Below are positions 4,858 through 28,606 of a stretch of DNA of 62,500 nt, one piece after another (the stretch's first letter is position 1; each line of letters begins with the position of its first letter). The notes beneath the pieces were generated by a model that saw nothing but the letters and a program-made list of their open reading frames with translations, ran no database searches and had not been told where the DNA came from. This DNA comes from Candidatus Zixiibacteriota bacterium. Lineage in GTDB: Bacteria > Zixibacteria > MSB-5A5 > GN15 > FEB-12. The stretch covers positions 1 to 62,500 of the forward strand of contig JAOUBJ010000017.1 in NCBI GenBank assembly GCA_029860345.1. The letters are read 5' to 3'. The position numbers and the translations under genes are program-made.

Positions 4858-6249
4858 ATGAGAATAAGAACAGTTTTCTCTTGTCTGTCAATGACCGCGC
4901 TTGTGGCGTTGTCATTATCGAGCGTTGTCGAAGGTCGCACGGACTACGACATAGCCGGGTCGGCAACTGCCCTGATCGCGGTCGACCTTGACGGTGACAG
5001 CGCGCTGGACATCGCCGCCGCCGATGGGTCTTCCGGTGCGGTTGCGATCCTGTTCAACAACGGCGATGGTAGTTTTCAGACGCCCGTCTACATCGCAACT
5101 GCGCCCGGCACCAATTCGATAGCCGCCGGGTATCTCAACCCGGATAGCTTTGTCGACCTGGCTGTCACCAACTCAAGTGATGGTTCAGTTTCGATCCTCT
5201 ATGGAAACGGCGATGGCAGTTTTCAACCGGTCCAGACAATCGTCACGTTGGAAAGCCCACACTCGATCGTAATAGCCGATTTCTACCTGGATGGCCGTCC
5301 CGACCTCGCCTTTGCCGCGGGTAACGTAGCGACATCCTGTTTGTGTTTGCGCTTCAACGACAACCTGGGCAGTTTTGAGGCAAATGCGCAGTACGCACTT
5401 GATACCGATGCGTTGGAGGTCCTGGCCGGTGACTTCAATGGTGACGACACGGTCGATGTGGCCGTACTCCACCGCCATTACTGGGGTGGGATTCCATCGC
5501 ACGACCCGGTATGGATCAGATTGGGCAATGGCAACGGCTCCTTCCAGGATGCAACCTACCCGCCCGGCTTGATGATGGCCAGCACTATGGCCGTGGCCGA
5601 CATAGATTCGGACACCGATCAGGATCTGGTAGTCGGCGTCGATGACTGGGATGTCTGCATGGGAGCGATGTTGACGCTCGAAAACGACGGCAGCGCTAGT
5701 TTCTCAACCGGTGTGATTGGCGCCTTCTTCTGGGATCAAGCCAGATCATTGACACCGGTCGACTTCAACAACGACGGTGGCATGGATTACCTCGTTGCCC
5801 TGACCTGCGATACGATTGGACGCATTAATCTCTACATGAACTACTTTGACACAACGTTGTACGAGCCGATCAAACTGGTCGACGCCAACTACGCCTCCTA
5901 CGATGTCATCGCCGCCGACCTGGACAACGACGGTGATTTCGACATAGCATCGGCCAACGGTGACATTGCCGTGTTTGAAACCCAGAAAACCGGCGACCCC
6001 TGCTGTCGCGGTATCCGTGGCAATATCGACTACGATGCGAACGATCAGATCAACATCGCCGATATCGTGGCTTTGGTCGACTACATGTTTACAGGTGGAC
6101 CCAACCCGCCATGCACCGGGGAAGCCAATGTCAATGGCGACGGCGTCGGTGAGAGTGAGCCGTGGGACATCAACGACCTTATCTACCTAATAGACTATAT
6201 GTTCGGCGGGGGTCCACCCCCACCGCATTGTGTGATCTTTGACGAATAG
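4858..6249 (+). CDS. Secreted FG-GAP/VCBS-repeat protein with dockerin-like tail
   Basis: 463 residues from the ATG at 4858, which has GGAGGA seven bases upstream and begins a signal peptide (MRIRTVFSCLSM, cleavage near VEG). The body is FG-GAP/VCBS-type repeats: D-x-D/N-x-D-G calcium loops such as VDLDGDSALDI and ADLDNDGDFDI alternate with NNGDGSF strands, consistent with a beta-propeller. The last ~75 residues hold two dockerin-like Ca-binding units, INIADIVALVDYMFTGG and WDINDLIYLIDYMFGGG, like those in three other proteins here. The frame continues upstream of the chosen start but lacks a ribosome site. It ends 11 bases from the convergent gene at 6261. Likely cell surface; the target is unknown. 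Confidence 0.8.
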   Translation: MRIRTVFSCLSMTALVALSLSSVVEGRTDYDIAGSATALIAVDLDGDSALDIAAADGSSGAVAILFNNGDGSFQTPVYIATAPGTNSIAAGYLNPDSFVDLAVTNSSDGSVSILYGNGDGSFQPVQTIVTLESPHSIVIADFYLDGRPDLAFAAGNVATSCLCLRFNDNLGSFEANAQYALDTDALEVLAGDFNGDDTVDVAVLHRHYWGGIPSHDPVWIRLGNGNGSFQDATYPPGLMMASTMAVADIDSDTDQDLVVGVDDWDVCMGAMLTLENDGSASFSTGVIGAFFWDQARSLTPVDFNNDGGMDYLVALTCDTIGRINLYMNYFDTTLYEPIKLVDANYASYDVIAADLDNDGDFDIASANGDIAVFETQKTGDPCCRGIRGNIDYDANDQINIADIVALVDYMFTGGPNPPCTGEANVNGDGVGESEPWDINDLIYLIDYMFGGGPPPPHCVIFDE

Positions 6250-6260
6250 GTTGCGGCTGT

Positions 6261-6653
6261 TTAGATCGTCCGGAACGTCATCTTGAAGGGCGCCGCAGGG
6301 TTTCCGTTTTTGTCTTTGAAGTTCTTGAAGTTTGAAGAGTTGATCCAAACCACATATTCCCGACCACTCTCCAGGCTGACCGGCAGGATGTTCCTGGTGA
6401 GGTCTTCATTGTAGTAAGGCTGGCCGGTCATCGTGGGGAAACTGTTTTTGTCTTCATAGACCCACGACCAGTTTTGGTCCATCATTTCCTCGTTGAATAC
6501 AACAGCGATTTCCGTCAGAGTGGGATCAACCTCCATACTGCCGTTCTGGGGAAAAGTACTGACCACGCGCGGTGGATCTGTGTCACTCTGGGCGCACATC
6601 ATGCAAGAGAACAAAAGTAACACCGTAAGTATGAACAAAGTTGCTTTTTTCAT
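6261..6653 (-). CDS. Small secreted protein with Ig-like (Big_5-type) domain
   Basis: 130 residues from the ATG at 6653 (MKKATLFILTV), with a GGAG site upstream; longer upstream codons lack one. The N-terminus is a signal peptide ending in Cys-containing LLFSCMMC, possibly a lipobox. The rest matches the bacterial Ig-like Big_5 pattern: PPRVVSTFPQNGSMEVDP, then IAVVFNEEMM, and a C-terminal KDKNGNPAAPFKMTFRT. Such domains are structural adhesion modules and are seldom alone as here. It converges with the FG-GAP protein gene. Function otherwise unknown. Confidence 0.7.
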   Translation of the reverse strand: MKKATLFILTVLLLFSCMMCAQSDTDPPRVVSTFPQNGSMEVDPTLTEIAVVFNEEMMDQNWSWVYEDKNSFPTMTGQPYYNEDLTRNILPVSLESGREYVVWINSSNFKNFKDKNGNPAAPFKMTFRTI

Positions 6654-6834
6654 CCGTATCTCCTCGACGTTTGGGGATAGCTTGAGTTCTGCATCTTCCC
6701 TCTTTGGTATATGTATCTGTATCGGCATGCTTCTGCTCGGAATGCAGTATGGCAGAACCGCCTCTGGTTCTGCCATACTTCGGTGGGTGGCACCCCTCAA
6801 GCCTCGCTTGGGAGTGGTGATGAATCAATTACTT

Positions 6835-6917
6835 GCGCTTCGCGGCTTGTGACGCCATCAAGCCGTGCACTGGGCAGGGTGCTTAGCGCGAGAAACAGGC
6901 TTGCCTGCCGCCCCAAA
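6835..6917. repeat. Dispersed repeat, second copy of the 1901-1983 element
   Basis: It aligns over about 83 bases with 1901-1983, starting GCGCTTCGCGGC and ending GCTTGCCTGCCG, in the same orientation. It directly precedes the 172-bp element at 6943-7114. Together they occupy most of the 577-base gap between 6653 and 7231; I see no gene in it. Confidence 0.7.
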
Positions 6918-6942
6918 CAAGCAGGCTGGGTCGCAATGGCAC

Positions 6943-7114
6943 GTTCCTCCGGTTCCTGCGTTCGCCGAAGGCGAGCGTGTGAACCGGAGGTTTCAAAGGC
7001 TGCTCTTACACAACGCCTTGGTAAGAGTCGCAGGGTCACATTTCCGACTTCGTCGAGATCGGGACCCTGCGAAACCACATTATGACACAGCCTCAAGGTT
7101 TGAGACAGCCACCC
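6943..7114 (+). repeat. 172-bp dispersed palindromic repeat, copy A
   Basis: Copy B is at 51149-51320 on the opposite strand, with exactly the same length and about 85% identity by eye. Internally it contains two hairpin pairs: CCTCCGGTTC with GAACCGGAGG, and CGCAGGGTC with GACCCTGCG. It has no coding capacity that is conserved between copies. It resembles a small non-autonomous palindromic element. Its 3' end (GGTTTGAGACGGCCAC) also appears at about 43273. Confidence 0.75.
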
Positions 7115-7162
7115 ATAATCGTCCTGGCGAAGACGGGCCCACCCTACCTCATTGGTAGTAAA

Positions 7163-7190
7163 GGCCGGGCAAGTATAAACTTGCCCGGCC
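7163..7190 (-). terminator. Hairpin terminator of the subtilase gene
   Basis: GGCCGGGCAAGT and ACTTGCCCGGCC form a strong 12-bp stem about 40 bases past the stop of the minus-strand subtilase. On the minus strand it is followed by TTTACTACC, so the T-tract is short. Confidence 0.6.
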
Positions 7191-7230
7191 TGGGTTGTTT
7201 AAGGATTGAGGTTCGGAACCTGAAGCCGGC

Positions 7231-10200
7231 CTACAACCCGAACATCGTTTCGACCAGTAGAATCAGATCCGCTATATCGACAACCTGATTCCTGTCCATG
7301 TCGATTACTTCCAAAACCAGCGGCGGCGGACCACCGGCGAAGAAGTACTCAACCACATAGACCAAGTCTGAAATGTCGAGCGTTCCGTCAAGATTCGCAT
7401 CTCCCGGAATGTGGCCAATCATCACTACCGAACCATCGACACTGAAGGAATCGGCATCGTTAAATTGACCCGAAACCGTGTACGTCTGGACAGTAGTGTC
7501 GAACAACGGCCCGTAGCCTAGAATCAGCTCTTTCATCGGAACAGTCAGGTGTAATGGTGGACCAAAGAATTCAGGATGCACAGGTAGTATCGAGTTGGAT
7601 ACGGCAGCTATTGTGGTGTTCACCAGAACTGTCGCTGTATCGATCATATCTGTGGTGTGACCGTCGATAAAATCGCCCACGTACACCGAGGCTGCTAACG
7701 GATCAACAGCATAGGCCCAGTAAACGTAGATAGTATCCGGTTGTATCGTCGTTCTTGCCGCAAGATCGTCCGATATCCGGTTGCGTGTAGTGTTGGTTAT
7801 GACCGGTGCGTTGAAATCGAAGTAGATAGCGGCCCGGTTCTCTATAACGGTGCCGTCGGGAACACCGTCTCGCGGCGCCGCATCGTAAGTCAGAAAACCG
7901 TGACTGCCTGGTTCGCTGGTGTTGCTGTCGGGCAGCAGAATGTTATCGAAAGTCCACACCAGTTCCGTTCCAACCAGGTTGAACGTATACGGGTGACTGC
8001 CGGCGCCGATTTTCAGCGACGCAGGATCGATATCACTATCCAGGCTGTCGCGGACGATGACGGTGAAGGCAGTATCGGTGCCCACATTCTGGAAGTTCAC
8101 CTGGTAGCGAAGGGTATCGATCCGACGGATCAGGCTATCGGGCCCAAAACCCGCTGGCGTCACCAGTTTTTCATTGGGATCGTAGGAGCCACGAACCGTC
8201 TGTGCCTCGGAGTCGGTGTTGTCGTCCTGATTATCGTCGCCGATAAGCGGATGGACCTCGGCCGTTGATATCAGTATGGTTCCCAAATCGATATTGACCG
8301 GTATCTGGGCCTTGGTCCACATCCACCTGGTCTCACCCGGCGCCATTGTTCCCAAAGGCCAGCTTACGGTGTGTGTGCCCGCAGCATAAGCGCTGTCCGG
8401 GCTGCTTTCCAGATGAGTCAATTGCGATGGTAGCTTCAACTGTACCGTTGCGTTGGCGACGGGCACGGTGCCGTGGTTCTTGCAGGTGATTCCGTAGAAC
8501 TTCTGAAAACCCGGCCTGGCCGGTCCGCCGGCGACATCAACGGTCAAATCCTGGATATTGGCCAAGGCACGACCGCCGAAGTCCTTATCCAGGAATGTTT
8601 GCCCCGCGGTCAGCGCGATCACATGGGTTCCCGGAGATAGTGGGCATGTCTGAACCCAGTTCGGTGGCGGGACAACACTAACGGTGTATGTGTTGGGCTG
8701 AAGGAAGCTGAAGAAGTATTCTCCGTTGGCATCTGAAGTGGTGGCCAAGCCGCCCGGTTCCAGGGTAACTGTCCAACCAGCCAAACTGTCCTCGGTGGCA
8801 TCCCAGGTACAGTCATCGTCAACGTCGTCAAACACGCTCCCGGCTATGGTTCCCAGACCTTCGCAGACATTGAAGCGGCGCGCCGTATTGTCCAGGTAAC
8901 TTATTCCGTCGGCGTTACCACCGGCGCCGTCATAGTCGATTCCTTCGTGGTCGAACCGCCCCACCAGAGCGTAGCTTATCCCGTCTCCTTTGTTGGCTCC
9001 CGCCGTGGCCGGTGCGCCGCCAAAACCATTGGAACCGCCCGACGCGTCGCCAGTTGTCCATTGCATGTCACCATAGCTGAAAGCCACGTTTTTGTCGAGG
9101 CCGACTATGGTATCGGTTCCATCTGTAATGATAACCTCGAAGGTGGACAGTTTCTCGGCATGGCTTCCAAAGTAACCCACACGATCCCAGATAACTGTGA
9201 GACGATGGGGTTCGGAGCGATAGTACACCACACCGCCGCTGTCGTTTCGGGTGTCGACATCACCCCAGAACGGTGCAATCATACCGAATCCCGAAATAGG
9301 GAAACCTGATGGACTGTACTCGAAATATGGGCCTTCAAAGGACAGGTTGCCATTGTTGTTTATGTAGAGTTCATTGAGCTCCGTCCCATAGAAACAGAAG
9401 GGAAATGACAACGGTATGAGAGGACTTGAGCCGTCGTCGTTACGATAGAGTGGCGGTGTGCCGTTGGTGAACGGCACAGCTGAGAACCTGGGCCACTGGA
9501 GCCAGGTAATGGCATAGTCTTGTGTGGTTCCACTTGCTCCCGCAACGGTGGGGGCGGATACCCGGATTTTCCATTTACCCGCGACAGGGTCCTTGACCAC
9601 CACTTGTTCGACATTGTCGCGGTCGTTAACCCCCTGTGCGGCGTTGTTGGACGGATTGGCCGGATCGAGAGTCAACGGCAAATACTCGGTTCCGTTCGGA
9701 TCGATCAACTTTAGATTGAGATTGTTGACAAGCGTCGGATTCGCATTGACGGCCGCTTCTTCATCGGAATAGGCCAACATAACCCGAAGGGTGTCGGTGT
9801 GGACCAATACATCGAGATTCCATTCATCGGTGGAGTCCTGAGCAATCTGGTATTCCCGCCAGGCCATTCCTTCCAGGGTTTTCACTGCCTGAAGCCCGTC
9901 AGCTTTGCCGTAACCATATTTATAGTCGGGGCCGGGATTGCCAAGTTCTTTGGCCGTGTTGAGTATGATGGACTTAATCAATTCCGGAGAGGGATTGGTA
10001 CTGTCCTTCAGCTCACGGTAGCGATCGATCAGCAACGCGCTCAGGCCAGAGATGGCCGGTGCGGCCATTGACGTACCGTTTTTGCTGCCATATAAGTTGT
10101 TGGGTAAAGTCGAGACCACACTCTGACCGACGGCTGTGATTTCCGGTTTCAAGCGCCCGTCATCAGTGGGTCCCCAGTCGCTGAATTGGGTCATGCCGTC

Positions 10201-17681: not shown

Positions 17682-20600
17682 CTAACGAGCGGCGCCCGTT
17701 CTACAGCTTGACGGCACTGCCAGTGATCCGGCATGGGCAGACCAGCGACGCATAGTCTCCACACCGGGTTTGCTCGGCGTTCCTCCTCTCAAGCAGTCCA
17801 GACAGTCGCAACGGCAGGGTGGCGGACCACCGACGAACATGTAGTCAACCACCCAGACGAGATCGCTAATATCGATCACGCCGTCGCAATTGACATCAGC
17901 ATCCTCAAAGCAACATGGCGGCGGGCCACCGGTGAACATGTAGTCAACCAGGAAGACCAGGTCGGAAATATCCATACCCGGTGTCCCGTCGCAGTTGATG
18001 TCACCACGCGGCCTGTCGGGAGGACTACAGCACGGCCTGGGGATATGCCGCTTGCGCGTATGTCCGATTACTTGGCCGTTGTTATCCAGGATAGGTACAA
18101 TGCGCGGATCGTTGTACGGCCGATCAAACGGCGGCGTGAAGGCATCACCATCCATCGGGTCCCAGCCCTCAGCACACGACAGATGCATCTGCGCCGGAGC
18201 ACCGTGCAGAACATCCATCGGGAAAGGAAGTCCCGTGGTGATAACAAAGTACACGTCGAAGAAGCTCTCGGCCTGGTGATCGTCGCACCAGTTGCACATC
18301 TGGATATAACCACCGGATGGCTGAGTGGGATCGAGCTGAATCTCGAACGGACCCAGCAATACCGGGTCATCGCCTGAGCCGCCGAACTCCAGGATAGTGG
18401 TGTTCATGCGGTAGGTGCCCGGCGCAACTTCAAACGGCGCCGAACGCTGGACGATCATGTCCTGACCGGTAGCGTACAGGGTTGTCAAGAGAACGATTCC
18501 CGAAGGATCGTACAACTCGATTTCGAAGTCATGGACCGGGATAGTATCGATACCGCCGTTCCAACCAGTCGAACAAGGCTCGCACGGGTTCGGATCGCAC
18601 GGTATACCGTCGCCCTGATACTCATCGTTGGGACCGATGCATCGGGCCTCGGTGGTCATGTGGCAAGTATGCTCGATGGTGTCACAACATGCACCCAGCG
18701 AATCGACATCGATACTGTGACGCTTCATTGTATAACCAAGCGTGTCACCGGTGGCTTCATCGATGATCGGCACCTTCCTCGGGTCAATATAGCGATGACC
18801 ATAAGGAGGCGCGAACTCTCCACCTGGGAACGGATTCCACTGATCGTCGCAGTCTAAGCCCATCTGAGCGTTTCCGGTGTACATCGCCGAGGGTCCGGTG
18901 ACTCGATAATCGAAATCGAAGAAGCTCTCGGCCCAATTGTCGTTGCAGGAATCGCACATCCGGATGAAACCGGTATCGGGCGAGTTCGGATCAAGGTCGA
19001 TCGTAAAGGCTCCACCCACCAGTGCGCTGGTACCGGCACCGGTCAGACTGAGCACCTTGGTATCGAGCTTCCAGATACCCGATCCGGGAACTTCCTCGTG
19101 CAGGTTGTAGCGCATGACAACCATGTTGGCGCCAAAGGCCGTTACCGTACCCAGTGAAACCGACGGGTCGACAAGATCGAAGAGTTCCACCTCGAAGGCC
19201 GAGAACAGAATGGTATCCATGCCCGGTATCCAGTCGGTGCAGATGCACGGATTGGGCGAGCACGGGACACCATCGCCCATGTATGCCTCATTGGGACCGA
19301 AGCAACGTACCGCTGAAGTCATGCGGCAAGCACCGGTAGCATAGTCGCAACAGGCACCCAGAGGTTCATCGTCCACATTGTGCTGTTTCCAAACATAACC
19401 GATGACTTCACCGTTCTCGTCGATGATCGGAACCTTGCGTGGATCGTTGTAGGAGTTGCCGTTGGGCGGATTGAACTCTCCACCCTCGAACGGGTCCCAC
19501 TGATCTTCACACGGCAGGATCATCTGGGCGTTGCCGCGCCAACGGTTGCTCGGCCACGGTAGCGACGTCAGTATCTCATAGTTGAGATCGAAGAAACTCT
19601 CCGCCCAGTTGTCGTTGCAGGAATCGCACATCTGGATATAGCCGCCCGACTGCAACGTCGGGTCGAGACCGACCGTGAAGGGACCACCGGTCAGCGCACT
19701 GGTACCGTTTCCACCGAACTGCAGAATGTCGGTATCCATCCGCCAGATGCCCGGCGCCACCTCGTAGGGTGTACCCCGTTGGACGACCATCTGCACGCCG
19801 AAGGCGTAGAGGGCGCTGACCGGATTGAGCGTATCCGATCCATCGTAGTACAAGACCTCAAACGATGAGAACAAAATAGTGTCAATCCCCGGTGTCCATT
19901 GTGTGCACACGCAGGGGTTGGGATGACAAGGCACGTTGTCACCCTGGTACTCATCGGCGGGACCGACGCATTGGATGGACGAAGTAATGCGACAGGTATG
20001 TTCCACTGTGTCGCAGCATGCGCCCAAAGGCTCGCGGGCAATCTTGTGCCGTTTCCAAGTATAGCCGACCAGATTGCCGTCAGCGTCATAGACCGGCACC
20101 TTGCGCGGGTCAACATAGCGGTGACCATACGGCGGAGTGAATTCGCCACCCGGAGGGAATGGATTCCACTGAGCTTCGCACGGCAATTTCATCTCGGCCA
20201 GTCCGTGATACCTATGTTGCGGAGGCGGCAACGAGGTGTTAAGGCGGTAGTGAATACTGAACTCACTCCGCGCCCAGTAATTATCGCAGGAGTCGCACAT
20301 CTCGATCAGACCACCGGAGTACTGGCCGGGGTCCAAGTCGATGGAGAACGGTCCGCCGATTGCCGGATTGGCCGATGTACCTGCTCCGGAGAACTGAAGC
20401 ACCTTGGTGTTCATTCGCCAGATACCGGGCGCCGTTTCAAAGGGCGCAAACCGCTGGACTATCATCTGGGCGCCGAACGCGGTCAGCGTATCGGGTGGCG
20501 CCGCCGAGTCGATAGGATCGTACAACTCAACCTCGAAAGCTGAAAACAATATAGTATCGATACCCGGTGTCCATGTCACGCACTGCGGACACGGGTTCGG

Positions 20601-23600
20601 CACACAACTGGTAAGTTCAGGATTAGGCTCTTCGTTGGGACCGTCGCAATCAGCCAAAGATGTCAAACGACAAGCACCGGTAACCATGTCGCAGCAGGCG
20701 TAACGCATGCTGTCGCACGGATGCGGGACAGTCGGTTGGTGCTGGGCGTGGCAGAGCCAACCCCGATGAACGGTTGAGACAGCCTCCACCAGCTTGAGCG
20801 GTGGCTGAGTCGGCACCGGGAAGTAGGCGTTGGTCGGGGGCAGACTGGTGATGCTGGCCTGCAAATGTAAAGCCGAATCGCCGGTGTTGAGCAAAAGACC
20901 GTAATCCGGCACTTCGACTTCGAGGTAGACATCGAAGAAGCTCTCGCCCGACACAAACCCACCATAGCCGTCGGTCACGACACTGGCGATATACCCTGTC
21001 GAAGCCTTGTCGGCGCGCTCACGAACTATGACCGTGCCCCAGACAGGATCGACAGCCGACAATTCGAACGCCACGATTTCGGTCTGGATAGTATCGCCGT
21101 TTTGATACGGACGCGGCTCGACCCAAACCTCGGACGTCGGAGTAAGCAACGAGGTCAGGTTCAACGGTACGCCGTAGAAACAAGTAGTGTCATCGGGATC
21201 GAGCGTGATAGTACCGCCACCTTCGGAGTCGAAGCAGTCTTTCTTCGGAATGACCGGACACGGGTTGGGCACACAACTGGTACCGTCGCCCTGCCATTCA
21301 TCGTCGGGACCGATGCAGCGTTCTTCGATGGTTATCCAACAAGCGCCGGTCACGGTGTCACAGCATGCACCCAGACTGTCGGGCGGCTGCACCCAGTGTA
21401 CCGGCCGTACCCATCCGATGATAACTGCCGAGTCCAGTACATTGACAACGGGATGCCAGTTGGGATCGGCATATTCCGTGTTGAATGGCGGAATAGCCTC
21501 GATACCGTTTTGTGCCTCCATGTGAGGAGGTGTAGCCGGCCCCGGTTCAATCGCAACACCAATCTCCGGGAAATTCACTTGGTAGTAAACATCGAAAAAA
21601 CTCTCGGCCGGGAAGAACTCATCCGGTGAATTGGGATACACCCAGCCATAGGAAGCTTGTGGGGACAGCGTGAGAATAGCCTCACCAAACAACTGGCTGC
21701 GACCGGTTAGGTCCATCTCAAGCAGTTGCGTGAATAACTCTCCCTCGCCAAAGCTCTCCCATGAGAGAGTGCTGGTGCCGCCCAGATGAATCGTTTCATC
21801 GGGCTCCTGACCTGGAATGGGCGGTGTGGGTCCAACCACGATTCCCATCCAGCCGCCGGTCGGAATGGTACCCTGCCCGGTCTCCGGGTCCCGAACACGG
21901 TGTTTATGCCAGACCCAATAGAGAGTATCGCCGGTGTTCGGATCGACAACCGGCCTCTTTCGCGGGTCCTGATAGACGCGACCGTGCGGCGGGATTTGCC
22001 ATATCTCATCCTCCATGCGCGCATTCCCTCTGGGCGGCTCCTGCGCTCCGCAACAGAGTTCCACACCGATATTGAACTCGAAGCCGGTGCCGAACAGGGT
22101 TAAAATAGTGTAATAGAAACCCTGATAGTGCGCCCAGGATCGATTCGAGCCCGCCGTGCCATCGTCGGAAATGATAGCGAGCGTGTCGAGAGCCGGGTCG
22201 CCCGTATTCTGGACACCTATATGGAAGTCCTGGCCACAGAATATCAGGTTGAAGGCTGAGAAATCAACGACCGCATATCCGAAGGTTGCCGGTAAACTTG
22301 CTGACGGCACAGTGACTGAGGCCAGCGCCGCACCGGGCAAGCCTGCTCCGTCATCGGCATACACGGTAACCGTCATGTCGGGCGAGCCGACGGTCACATC
22401 GCCGTAGACCAGAACCTTCGCAGTTTTCAGCGTACAGCAGGCGCCGGCCAAGGGCGTGATTCGTTCACCCCACTCCGGGATTTCCCACGAGTTGGGTAAA
22501 CCCCAGAAATATGAGGCAGCCTGAGCTGTCTCATAGTACGGGCAGGTGTCCGGCGGCGGGATGATATCCCAGCAGTAGGGTCCGTTCCAAGCCGGGGAAC
22601 CGACGCCAGACCATAACCAGGCTCCTGACGGCGGGAAGAAAGCGGAGTCGATACACAAGGTCTTTCCGATCTCTGACGGATCGACCTGTGTGGCGATGGT
22701 GGCTGCGATGTCATCCCATCCCGGTGGGAGGCCGGTACTGGTCATCGCGGCTGCCCCGATTCCTATGGTGTCAGCGTCGCTGCCGTTGACGCTGAACTCG
22801 TTGTAACTACAGACAAGGTTAAACAACGCACAAAAGTCCGGATTGAGCGTTGTGGTCGGTGTAGTCCAGAGAGCGCCGTCCGGTGAGTGCATCCGAAAAC
22901 CGTTGCTTACGCCGGCGACATTACCTCCGCTGGTGTTATTCATCCAGATTTCGATATCAACCGGTTGACCGGCATATATACCGCCCCCCCCGGCGCCGGC
23001 GCCGGATAACTGCACATAGACGCCACTTTGACGACCCTTGACGGCACCCTGCGGCTCGACGGCATTGTCCGGAAGAGGCTCCAGTCGGACATCCGGTACC
23101 GGCTGCATCGATTGCAATTCGGCTTGCCGGTTCTGAAGATCGTAGCCCAACTGCCCCTTATAGGAGCCGCCGGTCGCGCTGGACTTTAACGGGTCCGGTT
23201 GCGAACCATGGGTGATTATATAATACACGTCGAAGAAGCTCTCGGCCGGGAAATCTATCCCGGGCGTGAGCTGAGTAATCTGCCCCGTGGACACGATGCT
23301 GCGGTCCAGCGTGACAAACACCGAGTCGCCGCTGACTGCACTCCAGCCGCGCATCAGCAGAGTATCCATGCGAGTGTTTATGGTCATAACACCGTCATCA
23401 TCAAAGGGGTCCCCGCGCCATATCACGGCGTATCCAACCATAGGGATTGTCTCAGTCGGTCCTCCGATAGTGTCCGGGTAAACTTCGATCTGAGCCGAAG
23501 TTGTGATGACGTCATATCCCGATGGCGGGTAGGCTTGCGCAAGTTGCAGGCCGCCGCCAAGTATAAGGATTGACAGTATGATTAATAGTTTTGCACGTAA

Positions 23601-23603
23601 CAT
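17682..23603 (-). CDS. Giant secreted Cys-rich modular protein with dockerin-like repeats
   Basis: 1973 residues; GGGAGG lies five bases before the ATG. After a signal peptide (MLRAKLLIILSILIL, cleavage near AQA), modules of roughly 150-200 residues repeat. Each has a DTI.F..FE...YD strand, an AESFFDVYF-type motif (seven variants, a few degenerate) and EFxPPxGxxYxDPRKVP. Five Cys motifs of the form GACCD-x-C-x-T-x-C-x-GP-x-GD-x-C-x-PNPC separate the later modules. A dockerin-like pair follows (DISDLVFLVDYMFTGG, DISDLVWVVDYMFVGG), and then an unusual 40-residue tail with CRCDCLDC. No enzyme motif is visible. Function unknown; a structural surface protein is the likeliest guess. Confidence 0.8.
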   Translation of the reverse strand: MLRAKLLIILSILILGGGLQLAQAYPPSGYDVITTSAQIEVYPDTIGGPTETIPMVGYAVIWRGDPFDDDGVMTINTRMDTLLMRGWSAVSGDSVFVTLDRSIVSTGQITQLTPGIDFPAESFFDVYYIITHGSQPDPLKSSATGGSYKGQLGYDLQNRQAELQSMQPVPDVRLEPLPDNAVEPQGAVKGRQSGVYVQLSGAGAGGGGIYAGQPVDIEIWMNNTSGGNVAGVSNGFRMHSPDGALWTTPTTTLNPDFCALFNLVCSYNEFSVNGSDADTIGIGAAAMTSTGLPPGWDDIAATIATQVDPSEIGKTLCIDSAFFPPSGAWLWSGVGSPAWNGPYCWDIIPPPDTCPYYETAQAASYFWGLPNSWEIPEWGERITPLAGACCTLKTAKVLVYGDVTVGSPDMTVTVYADDGAGLPGAALASVTVPSASLPATFGYAVVDFSAFNLIFCGQDFHIGVQNTGDPALDTLAIISDDGTAGSNRSWAHYQGFYYTILTLFGTGFEFNIGVELCCGAQEPPRGNARMEDEIWQIPPHGRVYQDPRKRPVVDPNTGDTLYWVWHKHRVRDPETGQGTIPTGGWMGIVVGPTPPIPGQEPDETIHLGGTSTLSWESFGEGELFTQLLEMDLTGRSQLFGEAILTLSPQASYGWVYPNSPDEFFPAESFFDVYYQVNFPEIGVAIEPGPATPPHMEAQNGIEAIPPFNTEYADPNWHPVVNVLDSAVIIGWVRPVHWVQPPDSLGACCDTVTGACWITIEERCIGPDDEWQGDGTSCVPNPCPVIPKKDCFDSEGGGTITLDPDDTTCFYGVPLNLTSLLTPTSEVWVEPRPYQNGDTIQTEIVAFELSAVDPVWGTVIVRERADKASTGYIASVVTDGYGGFVSGESFFDVYLEVEVPDYGLLLNTGDSALHLQASITSLPPTNAYFPVPTQPPLKLVEAVSTVHRGWLCHAQHQPTVPHPCDSMRYACCDMVTGACRLTSLADCDGPNEEPNPELTSCVPNPCPQCVTWTPGIDTILFSAFEVELYDPIDSAAPPDTLTAFGAQMIVQRFAPFETAPGIWRMNTKVLQFSGAGTSANPAIGGPFSIDLDPGQYSGGLIEMCDSCDNYWARSEFSIHYRLNTSLPPPQHRYHGLAEMKLPCEAQWNPFPPGGEFTPPYGHRYVDPRKVPVYDADGNLVGYTWKRHKIAREPLGACCDTVEHTCRITSSIQCVGPADEYQGDNVPCHPNPCVCTQWTPGIDTILFSSFEVLYYDGSDTLNPVSALYAFGVQMVVQRGTPYEVAPGIWRMDTDILQFGGNGTSALTGGPFTVGLDPTLQSGGYIQMCDSCNDNWAESFFDLNYEILTSLPWPSNRWRGNAQMILPCEDQWDPFEGGEFNPPNGNSYNDPRKVPIIDENGEVIGYVWKQHNVDDEPLGACCDYATGACRMTSAVRCFGPNEAYMGDGVPCSPNPCICTDWIPGMDTILFSAFEVELFDLVDPSVSLGTVTAFGANMVVMRYNLHEEVPGSGIWKLDTKVLSLTGAGTSALVGGAFTIDLDPNSPDTGFIRMCDSCNDNWAESFFDFDYRVTGPSAMYTGNAQMGLDCDDQWNPFPGGEFAPPYGHRYIDPRKVPIIDEATGDTLGYTMKRHSIDVDSLGACCDTIEHTCHMTTEARCIGPNDEYQGDGIPCDPNPCEPCSTGWNGGIDTIPVHDFEIELYDPSGIVLLTTLYATGQDMIVQRSAPFEVAPGTYRMNTTILEFGGSGDDPVLLGPFEIQLDPTQPSGGYIQMCNWCDDHQAESFFDVYFVITTGLPFPMDVLHGAPAQMHLSCAEGWDPMDGDAFTPPFDRPYNDPRIVPILDNNGQVIGHTRKRHIPRPCCSPPDRPRGDINCDGTPGMDISDLVFLVDYMFTGGPPPCCFEDADVNCDGVIDISDLVWVVDYMFVGGPPPCRCDCLDCLRGGTPSKPGVETMRRWSAHAGSLAVPSSCRTGAAR

Positions 23604-23735
23604 CTATTCCTCCCGTTTTCAGGGATTCAGAGTTAGATAGTTTTGTGTTGATTATGCCCATTGCGGGCCAAACGCGCGGTAGTGATGTCCGGCCGAGTTG
23701 CCGGATCGCCGACCCGCTCGTTTGCTTTTCTGATG

Positions 23736-24389
23736 TTACGATACGGGAGGTCCGCGAAGATGCGGAACCACATACCATAAGGAGATGCAGTGAGCCGACT
23801 CAAACCGTATGCAAAGTCGTCGGGAACAGCGCGAGTGGATACTGCTATGACGCAGTAATCGGCGCTTGACATAACGAGCCAAAAGCAGAATCAACCAGTT
23901 GCCCAGTACGATTACCGACGACCAAACGACCAACCCGCCCAGGGAACCTAATCCGGCTATAATATCCGGCCCCACAAACTCGCCTGGCAATTGACTGACC
24001 CCACTGTGCCGAGCCAAAACAGAACCGGACGCAACCCACAAAGCCGCAACGCACAACGGGTGACATTTTAAGTGTGACTTGAAGTGATTGAGGGCGAAAG
24101 CGAAGCCGGCGAAGGCCACATTGAGGGCAACCAGCCGAATGAAAAACTGGACGGGAGATGCCGGCAAATTGCCCAAGTAGCCCGCAACTACGTAAGTTGA
24201 AGCCAGGATCAGACCCAGAACCGGCGCCTGCATGCGCGAAACATGACAGAGACGCCACAGAAGAGGAACCAAAGCGAAGAGAGAGAAGAACCATAGTTCG
24301 GGGTGAACGTGTGCAAAACACAGCATCACACCGGAACTTCCTGCCGACAGCAGATTCAGTCGCAGTTGACTACCGAGCGCCCGGTTCAT
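23736..24389 (-). CDS. Lnt-like polytopic membrane protein lacking the nitrilase domain (A)
   Basis: 217 residues from the ATG at 24389. This start is chosen because it aligns with the paralogue at 24986: both then run ...LR.N...A.SS..ML..AH.HPE.W..SL.A.VP.LWRL. The pattern of short N-terminal helices and FALVPLLWRL resembles the membrane domain (LNT_N) of apolipoprotein N-acyltransferase. The C-N hydrolase domain with its Glu-Lys-Cys triad, normally ~260 further residues, is absent. About six hydrophobic segments are visible, then a basic cytoplasmic tail rich in Arg, Ser and Cys. Next to the IPTL/exosortase H genes. The annotation rests on resemblance read by eye. Confidence 0.5.
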   Translation of the reverse strand: MNRALGSQLRLNLLSAGSSGVMLCFAHVHPELWFFSLFALVPLLWRLCHVSRMQAPVLGLILASTYVVAGYLGNLPASPVQFFIRLVALNVAFAGFAFALNHFKSHLKCHPLCVAALWVASGSVLARHSGVSQLPGEFVGPDIIAGLGSLGGLVVWSSVIVLGNWLILLLARYVKRRLLRHSSIHSRCSRRLCIRFESAHCISLWYVVPHLRGPPVS

Positions 24390-24985
24390 CACAACCCTGC
24401 CCGTTTTGTAGCCGATTGGTGCAGCTACATCGTTCAGACTTTTTCGGTTCTCCAAGCGGATGATGAGGACTTAGTAATCTGCACTGTTGTGAATTCGACG
24501 ATGGTCTGTTGATCTGAGCCCAAGACGGGGCATCACTCCTCACCCTATGCCGGAAGAAAGAGATGATGGTCGACGTTGTCAAGCTTTTAATTGGAGATAA
24601 ATCCGATGTCCGGCCATGTCCGGAGAGTTGTGAGAGCTAAGGTCCCATTTCATTCCCGGCATCGCACGGTCTGGCGCGCTGACAAGCCCGGGAAACAGGA
24701 CCACTCACACATAGAATAATGGAGCGATTCATCCAAAAAAGAGCTTGACAAGCCCTGCCCCAGGTGGTTCTTTGCTCATGAGGTTGGGGGCGACCTTCAA
24801 CATTGAGTATTACCACCACAGCCCAACCCCGGGACGATAGGCTTACTTCTCAGTTACCTCGTCGGGAAACTGTAGGAACAATTTGTCTGTCTGCAAAATG
24901 GCGGACCATCAGGCTACTTGACGGCATCGGCGGGATTGGCCGTCTGCCTCAGAGTACCTCTGGGCGCCGGGAAGAGATACACGCC
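24390..24985. other. Divergent intergenic region between the two Lnt-like genes
   Basis: 596 bases that must carry the promoters of both divergent genes. Short frames here lack ribosome sites and recognisable products. No strong palindrome was found. Confidence 0.45.
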
Positions 24986-25711
24986 ATGAGGCCGGTTGCC
25001 ACCAAAACCAACCTTCGCGGTAACTGTCTTTGCGCCGCCAGTTCGGCGTTGATGTTGTATATCGCTCACAATCATCCCGAATTCTGGTATCTCTCGCTAA
25101 TTGCATTTGTGCCGTTTCTGTGGCGGCTTCTTCAGGTTGGCCTCTGGGACGCCGTATGCCTGGCTTCCACACTCGCGTCACTTTTTGTACTGGCCACCAA
25201 TGCCTTCGCACTGTTAGACGCTTTCGGTTCCGTTTGTTTTGAGTTGGTCACGTACAACATCGCTTTTGTAGCCTTTGCGCTTGGAATAAACCGCGCCAAG
25301 ACAAAACTGGGCTTCGATCCATTGATGATCGCTCTGCTCTGGTTCCCCATTGAGTATGTCCTGATTATCTATGCCGATGTCGGTAGCGTGTTTTCGGTAC
25401 CGGATGCTGGCTTGGGAGCAGCCGTCAGCTTTTGCACATTGTTCGGCTTTGCTTTGGGGTCATTTGTTGTGGTCCTGGTCAATGCCCTGATCCTCTGGCT
25501 GGCCGAGTGTATCGCACGGAAGGCGAGCGCGGATTGCAGAGCTTCATCAAGAGAGACTCAGACTTTTTACGTTCAAACCAATTTCGTCACGCTGCATTGC
25601 AATCTCTATTATCTTCTGGGTCCCCGCGCCCCTCCTGTTGTCATCACGTGGCTTGAGAGATCACTGGGAAGGCTGGCGCCAACGGTCGGGCTTCAGTCTT
25701 CACACCTGTAA
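24986..25711 (+). CDS. Lnt-like polytopic membrane protein lacking the nitrilase domain (B)
   Basis: 241 residues. The start is set at the ATG 24986 by alignment with paralogue A; the frame stays open to 24803 but the extra N-terminus is unlike A. It shares AH.HPEFWYLSLIAFVPFLWRL and the following helices (about six in all) with A, resembling the LNT_N membrane domain without any hydrolase domain. The C-terminal ~60 residues are a hydrophilic tail. Its stop is only 25 bases before the IPTL-CTERM gene at 25737, so the two are probably co-transcribed. That suggests a role in handling or anchoring exosortase substrates (inference). Confidence 0.5.
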   Translation: MRPVATKTNLRGNCLCAASSALMLYIAHNHPEFWYLSLIAFVPFLWRLLQVGLWDAVCLASTLASLFVLATNAFALLDAFGSVCFELVTYNIAFVAFALGINRAKTKLGFDPLMIALLWFPIEYVLIIYADVGSVFSVPDAGLGAAVSFCTLFGFALGSFVVVLVNALILWLAECIARKASADCRASSRETQTFYVQTNFVTLHCNLYYLLGPRAPPVVITWLERSLGRLAPTVGLQSSHL

Positions 25712-25736
25712 ATCTGACTAGCTAAAGGACAATGAA

Positions 25737-26552
25737 ATGAAGAGATTAGGAATCTGCTTTATAGCACTAGCGCTAATGGTGGGTGCCTTTGGCCAACTGG
25801 CTCAGGCCGCCTATCAGGAGCAAGATTGGCGCCATAATGGTACCGGGAGAACCGCGAACAACTTAGAGAAATTCCTTGATGGTGATTATCTGGTTTCGAG
25901 GTGGTACCAGGGCGGTGGACAGCGCTTTTCAAACTTCGACTATATCTATGACGCCACCACGGGTGTCACGACTCTCAAATGGTCGGGCGGAACGGTTCCC
26001 GACTCCACCTCCACCTGGGCATGTTTCTCAACCAACCAGAATAGTATCAAACATAAGTACATTCCTAGGTGGACCTTTGAGGACACAACGATTGGACACG
26101 CGGGCCCGGGCCTCTCAGGTGAATTCGCCGAAGTTTCCCCCGGTACTTTTAGGTGGGCTCTTACCAACGACGCTGTGGACGGTTACGATGTCACTCTGGC
26201 CGAGTTTTCCGTGGCAATCGTGCCAGACCCTCTTAGTTTTGCTGACTTGCGATACGATGAGATGGCTGGCTTGGAATGGCTCCCCGGTTACCCCACGCAC
26301 CTCGGTCTTTCCATGGGCGATTCCCTGGTTTTTGATGTGCCCGGTGTCCCAGAGGGAGGCGCCGTTGTTTGTCGTGCGGAGGTATATTACGACTTCGACC
26401 CAAGCGAAGTAGTCTACTACTCGGCTCAGATCCACATCAGCCCCGTCCCCACCCTCACCGAATGGGGAATGATCATCTTCTGCGTTCTGTTGTTCGGCTG
26501 GATGGCCTGGATGGTGGTGCGTCGGAAAAGGAGTGTGACAGTAGGTATCTAA
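25737..26552 (+). CDS. Exported IPTL-CTERM protein 1
   Basis: 271 residues, with AAAGGA before the ATG. A signal peptide (MKRLGICFIALAL, cleavage near AQA) precedes a ~210-residue beta-rich domain of unknown role. The C-terminus is a complete exosortase H sorting signal: PTLTEWG, a hydrophobic helix (MIIFCVLLFGWMAW) and a basic RRKR cluster. The encoded enzyme at 28049-28606 is the expected processor. From codon ~237 through the terminator the DNA is nearly identical to that of the neighbouring gene at 26677. The tail is therefore a duplicated cassette, whereas the rest of the two proteins is unrelated by eye. Confidence 0.85.
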   Translation: MKRLGICFIALALMVGAFGQLAQAAYQEQDWRHNGTGRTANNLEKFLDGDYLVSRWYQGGGQRFSNFDYIYDATTGVTTLKWSGGTVPDSTSTWACFSTNQNSIKHKYIPRWTFEDTTIGHAGPGLSGEFAEVSPGTFRWALTNDAVDGYDVTLAEFSVAIVPDPLSFADLRYDEMAGLEWLPGYPTHLGLSMGDSLVFDVPGVPEGGAVVCRAEVYYDFDPSEVVYYSAQIHISPVPTLTEWGMIIFCVLLFGWMAWMVVRRKRSVTVGI

Positions 26553-26640
26553 CGAGATAAAGATGTCGAAACCACAGAGGTCTCGACCTACTAGAGAAAA
26601 GGACTGACTCAGGCGGTGGGAGTTAAGCTCCTACCGCCGT
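26446..26640 (+). repeat. 195-bp sorting-signal and terminator cassette, copy 1
   Basis: It matches 27269-27463 (offset exactly 823) without gaps and with about seven substitutions by eye. It covers the last ~36 codons of the IPTL gene, the stop and two hairpins: 26565-26586 (GTCGAAACC/GGTCTCGAC) and 26612-26638 (GGCGGT.GGAG/CTCC.ACCGCC). The hairpins are probably the terminator. Confidence 0.9.
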
Positions 26641-26676
26641 CACCGATTCAATGATTGACAAGGCGGAAGAAATGTT

Positions 26677-27375
26677 ATGAGAACTTTCAAGACGTGTTTA
26701 GGGAGTTGGGTGTGGCCCTTCGTTCTGGCGGCGGTGATCCTCCAGCCGGCCCACGCCATAGCGTCGATAGATGACTGCCGATGCGCCGGTTGGGGGCCGG
26801 TACATGATATGATTGAGCCGATAACCGGTGAGATCACAATACAGATGAGCGTTCTGGAGACAATCGGTTCACACCTTGGACGGGTCGGCAACGTACAATC
26901 CCAGGTACTCTATGGTGTGTCGGCTGACTACGGAAGTATGAGTATTATGTACGACGATGCAAACCCGGCCCCATCTTGCACCCTGCTCTCGTTAAACCCC
27001 GTAGGTCAAATGGGAAGCCTCTACCCGGCCATCCACACCGTGCACCTCAACTGGGTGATGACGCTCGGGTCGCTGCGGGGACTAACGTTGCGCAGCGCCT
27101 CGACGGTCACCATGGTCAGTGAAGTACTTGACCAATGGCCAGCTGACAATATGACGTACACGGCCGTCACCGACGTCTATTTCGTTAATGTCGACGACCC
27201 CACGGACACCGTTCTGATGTTTCCGATGGCCGGCACCGTGGGCACTATCTCGCATACTCAGACTACCATCCCCACCCTCAACGAATGGGGAATGATAATC
27301 TTCTGCGTTCTGTTGTTCGGCTGGATGGCCTGGATGGTAGTGCGTCGGAAAAGGAGTGTGACGGTAGGTATCTAA
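26677..27375 (+). CDS. Exported IPTL-CTERM protein 2
   Basis: 232 residues with a GGAAG site before the ATG. A signal peptide (MRTFKTCLGSWV..., cleavage near AHA) is followed by a ~160-residue domain starting with a CRCAGW motif, of unknown function. The sorting signal is PTLNEWG, a hydrophobic helix and RRKR, almost the same as in protein 1. The gene lies 124 bases downstream of protein 1, after its terminator-like hairpins. It converges on the exosortase H pair, which lies on the opposite strand directly beyond the shared hairpin. Presumably cleaved and surface-released or anchored by exosortase H. Confidence 0.83.
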   Translation: MRTFKTCLGSWVWPFVLAAVILQPAHAIASIDDCRCAGWGPVHDMIEPITGEITIQMSVLETIGSHLGRVGNVQSQVLYGVSADYGSMSIMYDDANPAPSCTLLSLNPVGQMGSLYPAIHTVHLNWVMTLGSLRGLTLRSASTVTMVSEVLDQWPADNMTYTAVTDVYFVNVDDPTDTVLMFPMAGTVGTISHTQTTIPTLNEWGMIIFCVLLFGWMAWMVVRRKRSVTVGI

Positions 27376-27463
27376 CGAGATATAGATGTCGAAACCACAG
27401 AGGTTTCGACCTACAAGAGAAAAGGACTGACTCAGGCGGTGGGAGTTAAGCTCCTACCGCCGT
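27269..27463 (+). repeat. 195-bp sorting-signal and terminator cassette, copy 2
   Basis: Second copy of 26446-26640. Its hairpins fall at 27388-27409 and 27435-27461. The second hairpin also contains the stop codon of the convergent gene at 27454, so it may terminate transcription from both sides. Confidence 0.9.
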
Positions 27464-28047
27464 TTATTTGAGGTGCGGTCCGGTGCCGGTTTAGCTTTCT
27501 TGAAGTAGCGGTCGTACCAAACAAAGTAGAAGTAAAGACCCGCCCAAATCAGCACCGGGACCGCCTGAGCACTGAGCCGCAGCATCGTCAGGTTGGTGTA
27601 GAAAAGCGCCTTCCGCCAAAACACCGGATAGAGCGACTGTCCAGCGACTGTATTCATGTGCTGACCGTAGTAGTTGAACACGTACACTACCAAATGAACA
27701 ACCTGCACCCCAAAGATGACAGCGTAGCCAATCCCGAGGATCTTCAGGCGCAGCCGGGGCTTCACGTTCGGTACGGCCATAATCAGCGCCAGTAGGAAAA
27801 CCGTACCGAAGGAAATAATCCGGTAGCTCATAACATGCGGTTTGCCGTCGGGCGTCGGCTGATAGCGCAGTCTGATGTTCTTTCCGCTACTGTCCATCCC
27901 CGTGGTCAAGTCGTGACTGTCCAGCAGCAGCACCACCTTTTCGGCAACGAATGTCAGGACGGTGGTCACGGCCGGAGTTGTCACCACCCACAGGCCAAAG
28001 GCAAGGACGAAGAAAATCAGAAACCGAAGTAAGAACAGCAGTCTAAT
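27454..28047 (-). CDS. Exosortase H-associated membrane protein
   Basis: About 197 residues with four to five hydrophobic helices, ending in a basic, Lys/Arg-rich tail. It follows exosortase H directly and fits the membrane partner commonly found beside XrtH. The start is a problem. The in-frame ATGs (28149-28134) lie 86-101 bases inside xrtH, lack ribosome sites and would add a low-complexity Ser/Arg leader. The next GTG (27987) would cut the first helix. The chosen AUU at 28047 lies one base after the xrtH stop and would keep helix 1 by translational coupling. Function: probably assists sorting or anchoring of IPTL proteins (inference). Confidence 0.6.
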   Translation of the reverse strand: MRLLFLLRFLIFFVLAFGLWVVTTPAVTTVLTFVAEKVVLLLDSHDLTTGMDSSGKNIRLRYQPTPDGKPHVMSYRIISFGTVFLLALIMAVPNVKPRLRLKILGIGYAVIFGVQVVHLVVYVFNYYGQHMNTVAGQSLYPVFWRKALFYTNLTMLRLSAQAVPVLIWAGLYFYFVWYDRYFKKAKPAPDRTSNKRR

Positions 28048-28048
28048 G

Positions 28049-28606
28049 TTAAGCGGTTTCTTTTTCCGCCGCCCAGCGCGACCAGAAGTGCCAGACGAAG
28101 ATCGCCCAGAGGATGATGATCGGCTGCCAGACATACACATGGACCTCATTGAAAATGTTGGGATAGGAGCGACCCAGGTAAAACAAGCTGATCACCCTGC
28201 CCAGATTGAGCACGAAAACGGCCGCCACCCCCACCGGGATACCCCAGGCCTTGGCTTTGAGACGGGAAGGATAGGCGATGATGCCTGAGACCAATATCGC
28301 GGTGGCGTAGATGCCATTGCAGCCATCGACTACATTGATGCTATAGTCGGAGGTCATCAGACTGTTGCCCATCACTCTGGCCCCTGCCCCGAAGATATTC
28401 ATCACCAGGCTTGAGGCTGCAGTGACCAATCCGGTGAACGGCACGACAACGGCCATCTGGACCGCTTCGAAGTTGAAGGCAACGACAAACAAAAGCAGCA
28501 CGCCTCCGAAGGCCAGGTAAAGACGTAACAATGTTTTGATCAGCGCTCTCTTATCGCCGGTCTGCTTCTTGGTCCGCCCCTCACTCTTTGATTTCCGACG
28601 TCCCAA
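28049..28606 (-). CDS. xrtH: Exosortase H (IPTLxxWG-CTERM processing transpeptidase)
   Basis: Polytopic inner-membrane cysteine enzyme of the exosortase/archaeosortase family, which cleaves C-terminal sorting signals after export. At 185 residues with about six helices it matches the short XrtH type. The triad is in place: Cys96 in VVDGCNGIY, Arg137 in LNLGRVISLFYLG and His156 in FNEVHVYVWQ. The start is TTG at 28606 with GGAAAG upstream, and the N-terminus is basic. Two cognate IPTL substrates lie next to it on the opposite strand. Its stop is followed at once by the associated membrane protein. Confidence 0.9.
   Translation of the reverse strand: MGRRKSKSEGRTKKQTGDKRALIKTLLRLYLAFGGVLLLFVVAFNFEAVQMAVVVPFTGLVTAASSLVMNIFGAGARVMGNSLMTSDYSINVVDGCNGIYATAILVSGIIAYPSRLKAKAWGIPVGVAAVFVLNLGRVISLFYLGRSYPNIFNEVHVYVWQPIIILWAIFVWHFWSRWAAEKETA

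Follow-up and report, generated by a model that had tools for sequence, protein, structure and literature searches.

Lnt-derived membrane proteins as probable RAPP-type translation-arrest leaders of exosortase cargo genes in Zixibacteria

The first 62,500 nucleotides of contig JAOUBJ010000017.1 (assembly GCA_029860345.1; hereafter the window) of a Candidatus Zixiibacteriota bacterium carry the exosortase H gene xrtH, two genes for proteins with an IPTL-CTERM sorting signal and, next to these, two paralogous genes for membrane proteins resembling the membrane half of apolipoprotein N-acyltransferase (Lnt). This raises the question of what the two Lnt-like proteins, P0007 and P0008 (here leader 1 and leader 2), do beside an exosortase. 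A preliminary description of the locus had supposed that they may hold a lipid or pass it on to the C-terminus of sorted proteins. The analysis given here suggests, with a probability of roughly 80%, that the Lnt-like genes are instead polytopic, Lnt-derived translation-arrest leaders of the RAPP type, which control the synthesis of exosortase cargo in cis.

The conserved C-terminal end of the putative leader family

Each of the two paralogues has R-[A/G]-P-P at its end, which is the strongest RAPP-like ribosome-arrest motif known, and among the open reading frames (ORFs) of at least 50 amino acids in the window only these two have an RxPP C-terminal end. The family was searched for in 132 genomes of the phylum Zixibacteria, the scope of all family counts given here. 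This search yielded 48 complete non-redundant members, and a profile lacking the C-terminal tail added eight more to give 56, with the newly found complete members scoring 43-97 bits compared to 21-36 bits for full-length Lnts. Seven paralogues lie in the window's own genome. An R[AGSV]PP motif was present near the stop codon of all 56 complete members (RAPP in 30, RGPP in 23, RSPP in two and RVPP in one; RAPP or RGPP in 53), the median distance to the stop being five residues, and was not found in four full-length Lnts. As the eight members detected with the tail-less profile (A3) all carry it, the possibility that the motif is an artefact of a motif-containing search profile was rejected. 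Conservation of the motif as DNA was also rejected, since the codons of all four residues vary synonymously.

Within the alignment of the 48 sequences, the arginine and the two prolines are, together with the start methionine, the only invariant columns. The motif is preceded by a weaker consensus of [W/L][Y/F]L[V/I]P[E/D]x, and immediately past the A-site proline the information drops from 4.32 to 0.89 bits. Such a pattern, with the tunnel residues, the P-site and the A-site conserved and then nothing, is what an arrest core looks like. In published mutants of ApdA and ApdP, the arginine and both prolines proved essential or nearly so, with a change of alanine to glycine being fully permissive or stronger and serine, aspartate, proline and (in ApdP) valine being partly permissive (PMC12992588). 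The residues at the variable position of the family motif (A, G and rarely S or V) are solely those tolerated in these two proteins. RAPP and RGPP are also avoided in proteomes, probably because of stalling (PMC12992588). By analogy with this published RxPP biochemistry, it is expected that the ribosome would stall at the motif.

Counted from the P-site residue, the last transmembrane segment (TM) has its centre at a median distance of 48 residues (interquartile range 46-50) and its end at a median of 35 residues (range 28-40, with three of the 48 members at 30 or fewer by what is a crude hydropathy measure). The tail is likely to be cytoplasmic because the proteins stop after TM6, because of the topology of Lnt and because basic residues follow TM6. 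The strongest pull on a nascent chain is reported for a TM centre approximately 45 residues from the peptidyl transferase centre (PMC7886326), and the spacing of TM6 would thus place the arrest site close to the expected maximum of insertion pull. It is suspected that the leader family makes use of this pull.

Pairing of putative leaders with secreted-protein genes

Leader 1, like leader 2, directly precedes a gene for a secreted protein. Over the 56 loci, a tripartite IPTL-like tail was found in the next gene on the same strand in 46, while it was found in two of 53 preceding genes and three of 49 second genes downstream. Of the ten loci without a scored tail, two (L080 and L125) have a tail truncated by the end of the contig, two (L118 and L121) show a match to TIGR04174 further downstream of the leader, one (L107) is N-masked with a start resembling an IPTL paralogue (compare L104) and one (L099) lies at a contig end. 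The remaining four, all in the window's genome, are followed by large dockerin-like proteins with no IPTL-like tail.

Nearly all of the downstream ORFs have a start codon and a signal-peptide-like N-terminus, with a clear Shine-Dalgarno sequence in most. The median distance from the P-site codon to the downstream start was 118 nt, the shortest being 62 nt and two outliers lying near 430 nt, with the starts being assigned heuristically with signal peptides taken into account. Grouped by their bodies, 54 downstream proteins make up approximately 35 unrelated groups, so that pairing of the leader with one conserved cargo body was rejected; this diversity suggests that the leader accompanies an export or sorting tail rather than a single protein. 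The one-to-one pairing in cis with a downstream secreted-protein gene is easier to reconcile with a regulatory leader than with a lipid enzyme that acts in trans. No RxPP upstream ORF (uORF) was found ahead of 22 leaderless IPTL genes, which suggests that leader control is limited to a subset of IPTL genes. The leader proteins are themselves under purifying selection, with a ratio of nonsynonymous to synonymous substitution rates (dN/dS) of 0.11-0.33.

At L031 (G000:C1:176000-195000), each of three leader genes is followed by a gene for a secreted protein, with all of them on one strand (leader-cargo, three times). The four dockerin-like genes behind leaders include that behind leader 1 as well as 4991-9838 and 10900-13221 of L031. 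Three of their products have a Cys-rich stretch such as CDCLDC followed by a terminal SCRTGAAR or SAPCKR, with the fourth extending past the region covered, and these ends are perhaps another anchoring tail. Behind the leader at 6442-7131 of L121 (G028:C36), the IPTL-type signal is located mid-ORF instead of at the C-terminal end, which recalls the 'midcut-by-XrtH' proteins. Genomes G114 and G115 (L137-L148), with 18 and 12 IPTL hits, have a single leader each, located beside xrtH; the cargo behind this sole leader may be a sentinel substrate.

Among the 132 genomes, leaders were found in 37 and an XrtH-type exosortase in 50, with both being present in 36 compared to approximately 14 expected (hypergeometric 1e-19, phylogeny ignored). 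The occurrence of these proteins relative to XrtH, which the preliminary description had named as a check, is thus non-random, with 36 of the 37 leader genomes having an exosortase. Leader and exosortase lie within a few kb of each other in approximately 15 loci. A second XrtH-type exosortase of the window's genome, at 12642-13241 of L034 (G000:C9:184743-185195), scores 81 bits, which is below the cut-off, and has no leader nearby. Plasmid relatives sought by way of XrtH were found in Methylomonas only, with two of the three hits annotated as XrtM.

Proposed mechanism and competing explanations

In the proposed mechanism, the six-helix bundle from the membrane half of Lnt would enter the membrane co-translationally and the ribosome would stall at R-[A/G]-P with the next proline codon in its A-site. 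At the stall the last helix would be moving from the translocon into the membrane, so that normal insertion would pull the stall open, while slow insertion or assembly, through a shortage of Sec or YidC or through a condition that the bundle senses, for example XrtH or a lipid, would leave the ribosome stalled. For the window's genus, a stalled ribosome would be expected to hide the stretch that otherwise pairs with the Shine-Dalgarno sequence of the next gene, and stalling would therefore switch this gene on, in the manner of SecM and secA. The gene switched on would be that of secreted, mostly IPTL-tailed exosortase cargo. SecM arrests near its C-terminus (RAGP) and is released by force, with the downstream Shine-Dalgarno sequence becoming unmasked; it differs from the leaders in being small, secreted and without a polytopic domain, and its target is the translocase and not cargo. 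The direction of the regulation and the signal sensed are what we infer. A further and more tentative suggestion is that the Lnt-like domain serves as a nascent-chain sensor of the exosortase pathway (XrtH or its lipid donor) that gates substrate synthesis, giving a surface-sorting system beyond Sec and YidC a feedback loop.

The arrest codons of leader 1 contain CCUCCCGU (23750-23743), a perfect 8-nt complement of the downstream Shine-Dalgarno sequence ACGGGAGG, and this region is more stable than all 200 shuffles (z -3.84). For leader 2, the prediction is a pairing between the six bases past RAPP and the Shine-Dalgarno region of P0003, with the region as a whole being ordinary (z -0.82). Eight of the nine leaders in the window's genus pair the putative footprint of the stalled ribosome with the Shine-Dalgarno sequence at a probability of 0.54-0.95, compared to approximately 0.2 for swapped footprints (combined p 1e-4). 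The leader-end region was also more structured than a coding control (z -0.97 against -0.05, p 0.002). A universal masking of the Shine-Dalgarno sequence found no family-wide support (p 0.19, 0.33 and 0.44). These results support a SecM-type RNA switch in the window's genus and not as a general rule.

A number of points weigh against the arrest-leader explanation. The masking just described is non-significant over the family, and the genus subset in which footprint pairing was found had been chosen post hoc and contains paralogues that are non-independent. Of the seven leaders in the window's own genome, four are followed by dockerin-like proteins that have no IPTL tail. XrtH is missing from one leader genome (G006, 69% complete), the XrtH match in another (G089) is partial (22.7 bits) and 14 genomes with XrtH have no leader. 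In addition, the conserved Lnt core could point to a further function in trans of the released protein.

The missing family-wide masking would fit a variant of the arrest-leader explanation with the same first steps, in which the stalled, membrane-inserted leader tethers the polycistronic mRNA to the membrane and the cargo is thereby made beside the translocon and XrtH. The polytopic leader and its strict cis position ahead of secreted cargo suit such tethering, as does the distance of at least 62 nt from P-site to downstream start in all loci, which leaves space for a second ribosome. However, the masking within the genus suggests a switch, and the cargo is already targeted by signal peptides alone. 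Tethering of this kind is therefore considered unlikely, if by no means far-fetched.

The relationship to Lnt bears on the lipid role which had been supposed at the outset. The earlier likening of both proteins to the membrane half of Lnt stands for the fold: comparison of the family profile with four full-length Lnts by hhalign gave a probability of 97.6 (E 2.9e-12) over TM1-6, and with an AlphaFold model (pLDDT 82) the structure search VIA returned Lnt at all of ranks 1-20 with Z up to 13.6, the best non-Lnt match reaching 8.1. The single-sequence matches of the two window proteins to LNT_N score 18.1 bits (E 0.003) for one and 13.3 bits (E 0.097) for the other, which is under the Pfam cut-off of 27.1. 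By profile comparison and structural model, the body of the leader is derived from the membrane half of Lnt. As had also been described, both proteins are without the nitrilase half and its catalytic triad, with the ORFs stopping after TM6 and a tail of approximately 45 amino acids. What leaders have in common with Lnt (PF20154 plus nitrilase) is thus the membrane-half fold of TM1-6, while TM7, the nitrilase, TM8, R139 and the FPW loop are lacking and the RxPP tail stands in their place. A glutamate aligned with the EYFR motif of Lnt is retained in 35 of 48 members.

This glutamate, the Lnt fold, the co-occurrence with XrtH and the purifying selection would all suit lipid binders or transferase partners without catalytic activity, which would act in trans and help to anchor the C-terminus cleaved by XrtH. 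With the nitrilase half, R139 and the FPW loop gone, however, lipid transfer or catalysis by the Lnt-like proteins is judged unlikely. A lipid partner would also leave unexplained the invariant RxPP and the drop in conservation after it, the one copy per cargo gene in fixed order and the leaders ahead of four genes without an IPTL tail, and this explanation is regarded as improbable. Least probable of all is that the RxPP tail serves the mature membrane protein as a tag for protein binding or processing and has no translational role, since its place on the predicted cytoplasmic tail past TM6 would allow this but the close match to the mutational profile of ribosome arrest, the avoidance of RAPP and RGPP in proteomes, probably from stalling (PMC12992588), and a TM spacing that agrees with force sensing all argue against it.

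The arrest-leader explanation places the family beside the RAPP/RGPP arrest peptides ApdA, ApdP and the RQH family (PMC7897499, PMC10951233, PMC10987492, PMC12992588), with which it has in common a C-terminal R[A/G]PP, a localization signal or TM separated from the core by more than 30 residues, a small ORF that lies immediately ahead of the regulated gene and shares its strand, and a patchy distribution. The known sec/yidC arrest peptides have a signal sequence or a TM segment (up to four TMs in an S. lividans example) and target secA, secDF or yidC, while the leaders differ in their six-TM, Lnt-derived body and in having exosortase cargo as target. CruR of Bordetella (PMC9426467, via PMC12992588) is similar as a uORF with a C-terminal RAPP that controls a surface-receptor operon; it differs in being copper-responsive and in acting on a TonB-dependent receptor, and no Lnt fold figures in the account given there. 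The XrtH/IPTL-CTERM sorting system (TIGR04177, TIGR04174) is present here with xrtH and IPTL genes adjacent, but its descriptions in the literature covered include no arrest leader. Translation arrest and exosortase were not found together in the open-access full texts searched, and the main texts of two large arrest-peptide surveys mention neither exosortases nor Zixibacteria, that of the second also making no mention of CTERM proteins. Arrest control of exosortase cargo would thus be a control layer new to the literature covered.

If true, this would be the first translation-arrest control of any exosortase pathway and, by the literature covered, the most complex membrane domain to serve as an arrest sensor. 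It would remove the false lead of catalytically dead Lnts as lipid transferases and offer a direct handle on the signals to which exosortase cargo synthesis responds. The 56 members would be natural variants of one force-sensor design and material for the co-evolution of arrest strength, helix spacing and mRNA folding. The seven copies in one genome, four of them before non-IPTL genes, suggest a portable regulatory module.

Other features of the locus

The coordinates of the locus are given in Table 1. The genes reported in the preliminary description, namely xrtH, two IPTL-CTERM genes and two divergent genes for paralogous membrane proteins (38% identity, E 7e-32), were all present at their positions, and the spacing of 25 bases between leader 2 and P0003 was correct.

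Table 1. Positions of leaders, cargo genes and sorting genes in the window
Feature	Position	Strand	Remarks
Leader 1, P0007, 217 aa	23736..24389	-	six-TM Lnt-N-like protein, C-terminal RGPP-VS
Leader 2, P0008, 241 aa	24986..25711	+	Lnt-N-like protein; RAPP 24 residues ahead of stop
Putative arrest codons of leader 1 (RGPP), CGC GGA CCT CCC	23745..23756	-	sequence
Putative arrest codons of leader 2 (RAPP), CGC GCC CCT CCT	25625..25636	+	sequence
Shine-Dalgarno ACGGGAGG of the 1973-aa gene behind leader 1	23609..23616	-	8-bp complement of arrest codons at 23743-23750
Secreted dockerin-like repeat protein, 1973 aa, behind leader 1	17682..23603	-	without IPTL tail
GUUGUC in putative stalled-ribosome footprint of leader 2	25637..25642	+	predicted pairing with P0003 Shine-Dalgarno region
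Shine-Dalgarno region AAAGGACAA of P0003	25724..25732	+	
P0003, IPTL-CTERM protein behind leader 2	25737..26552	+	sorting tail 26445-26528
P0004, second IPTL-CTERM protein	26677..27375	+	sorting tail 27268-27351; terminator-like hairpin 27435-27461 after gene
XrtH-associated membrane protein	27454..28149	-	under family cut-off; true start probably within xrtH overlap
Exosortase H, xrtH	28049..28606	-	TIGR04177

The product of xrtH scored 108.5 bits against TIGR04177 (cut-off 86) and is thus an XrtH, with its neighbour scoring 26.4 bits against NF041730 XrtH_assoc (cut-off 35). The C-terminal signals of P0003 and P0004 scored 26.2 and 31.8 bits, respectively, against IPTL_CTERM TIGR04174 (cut-off 20.5). 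The 3' ends of these two genes form a direct repeat of 198 nt (26443-26640 and 27266-27463, 96% identical), which takes in the sorting tail and the sequence on to the terminator-like hairpin. As the remainder of the two genes looks unrelated, the tail and terminator seem to be mobile as a cassette.

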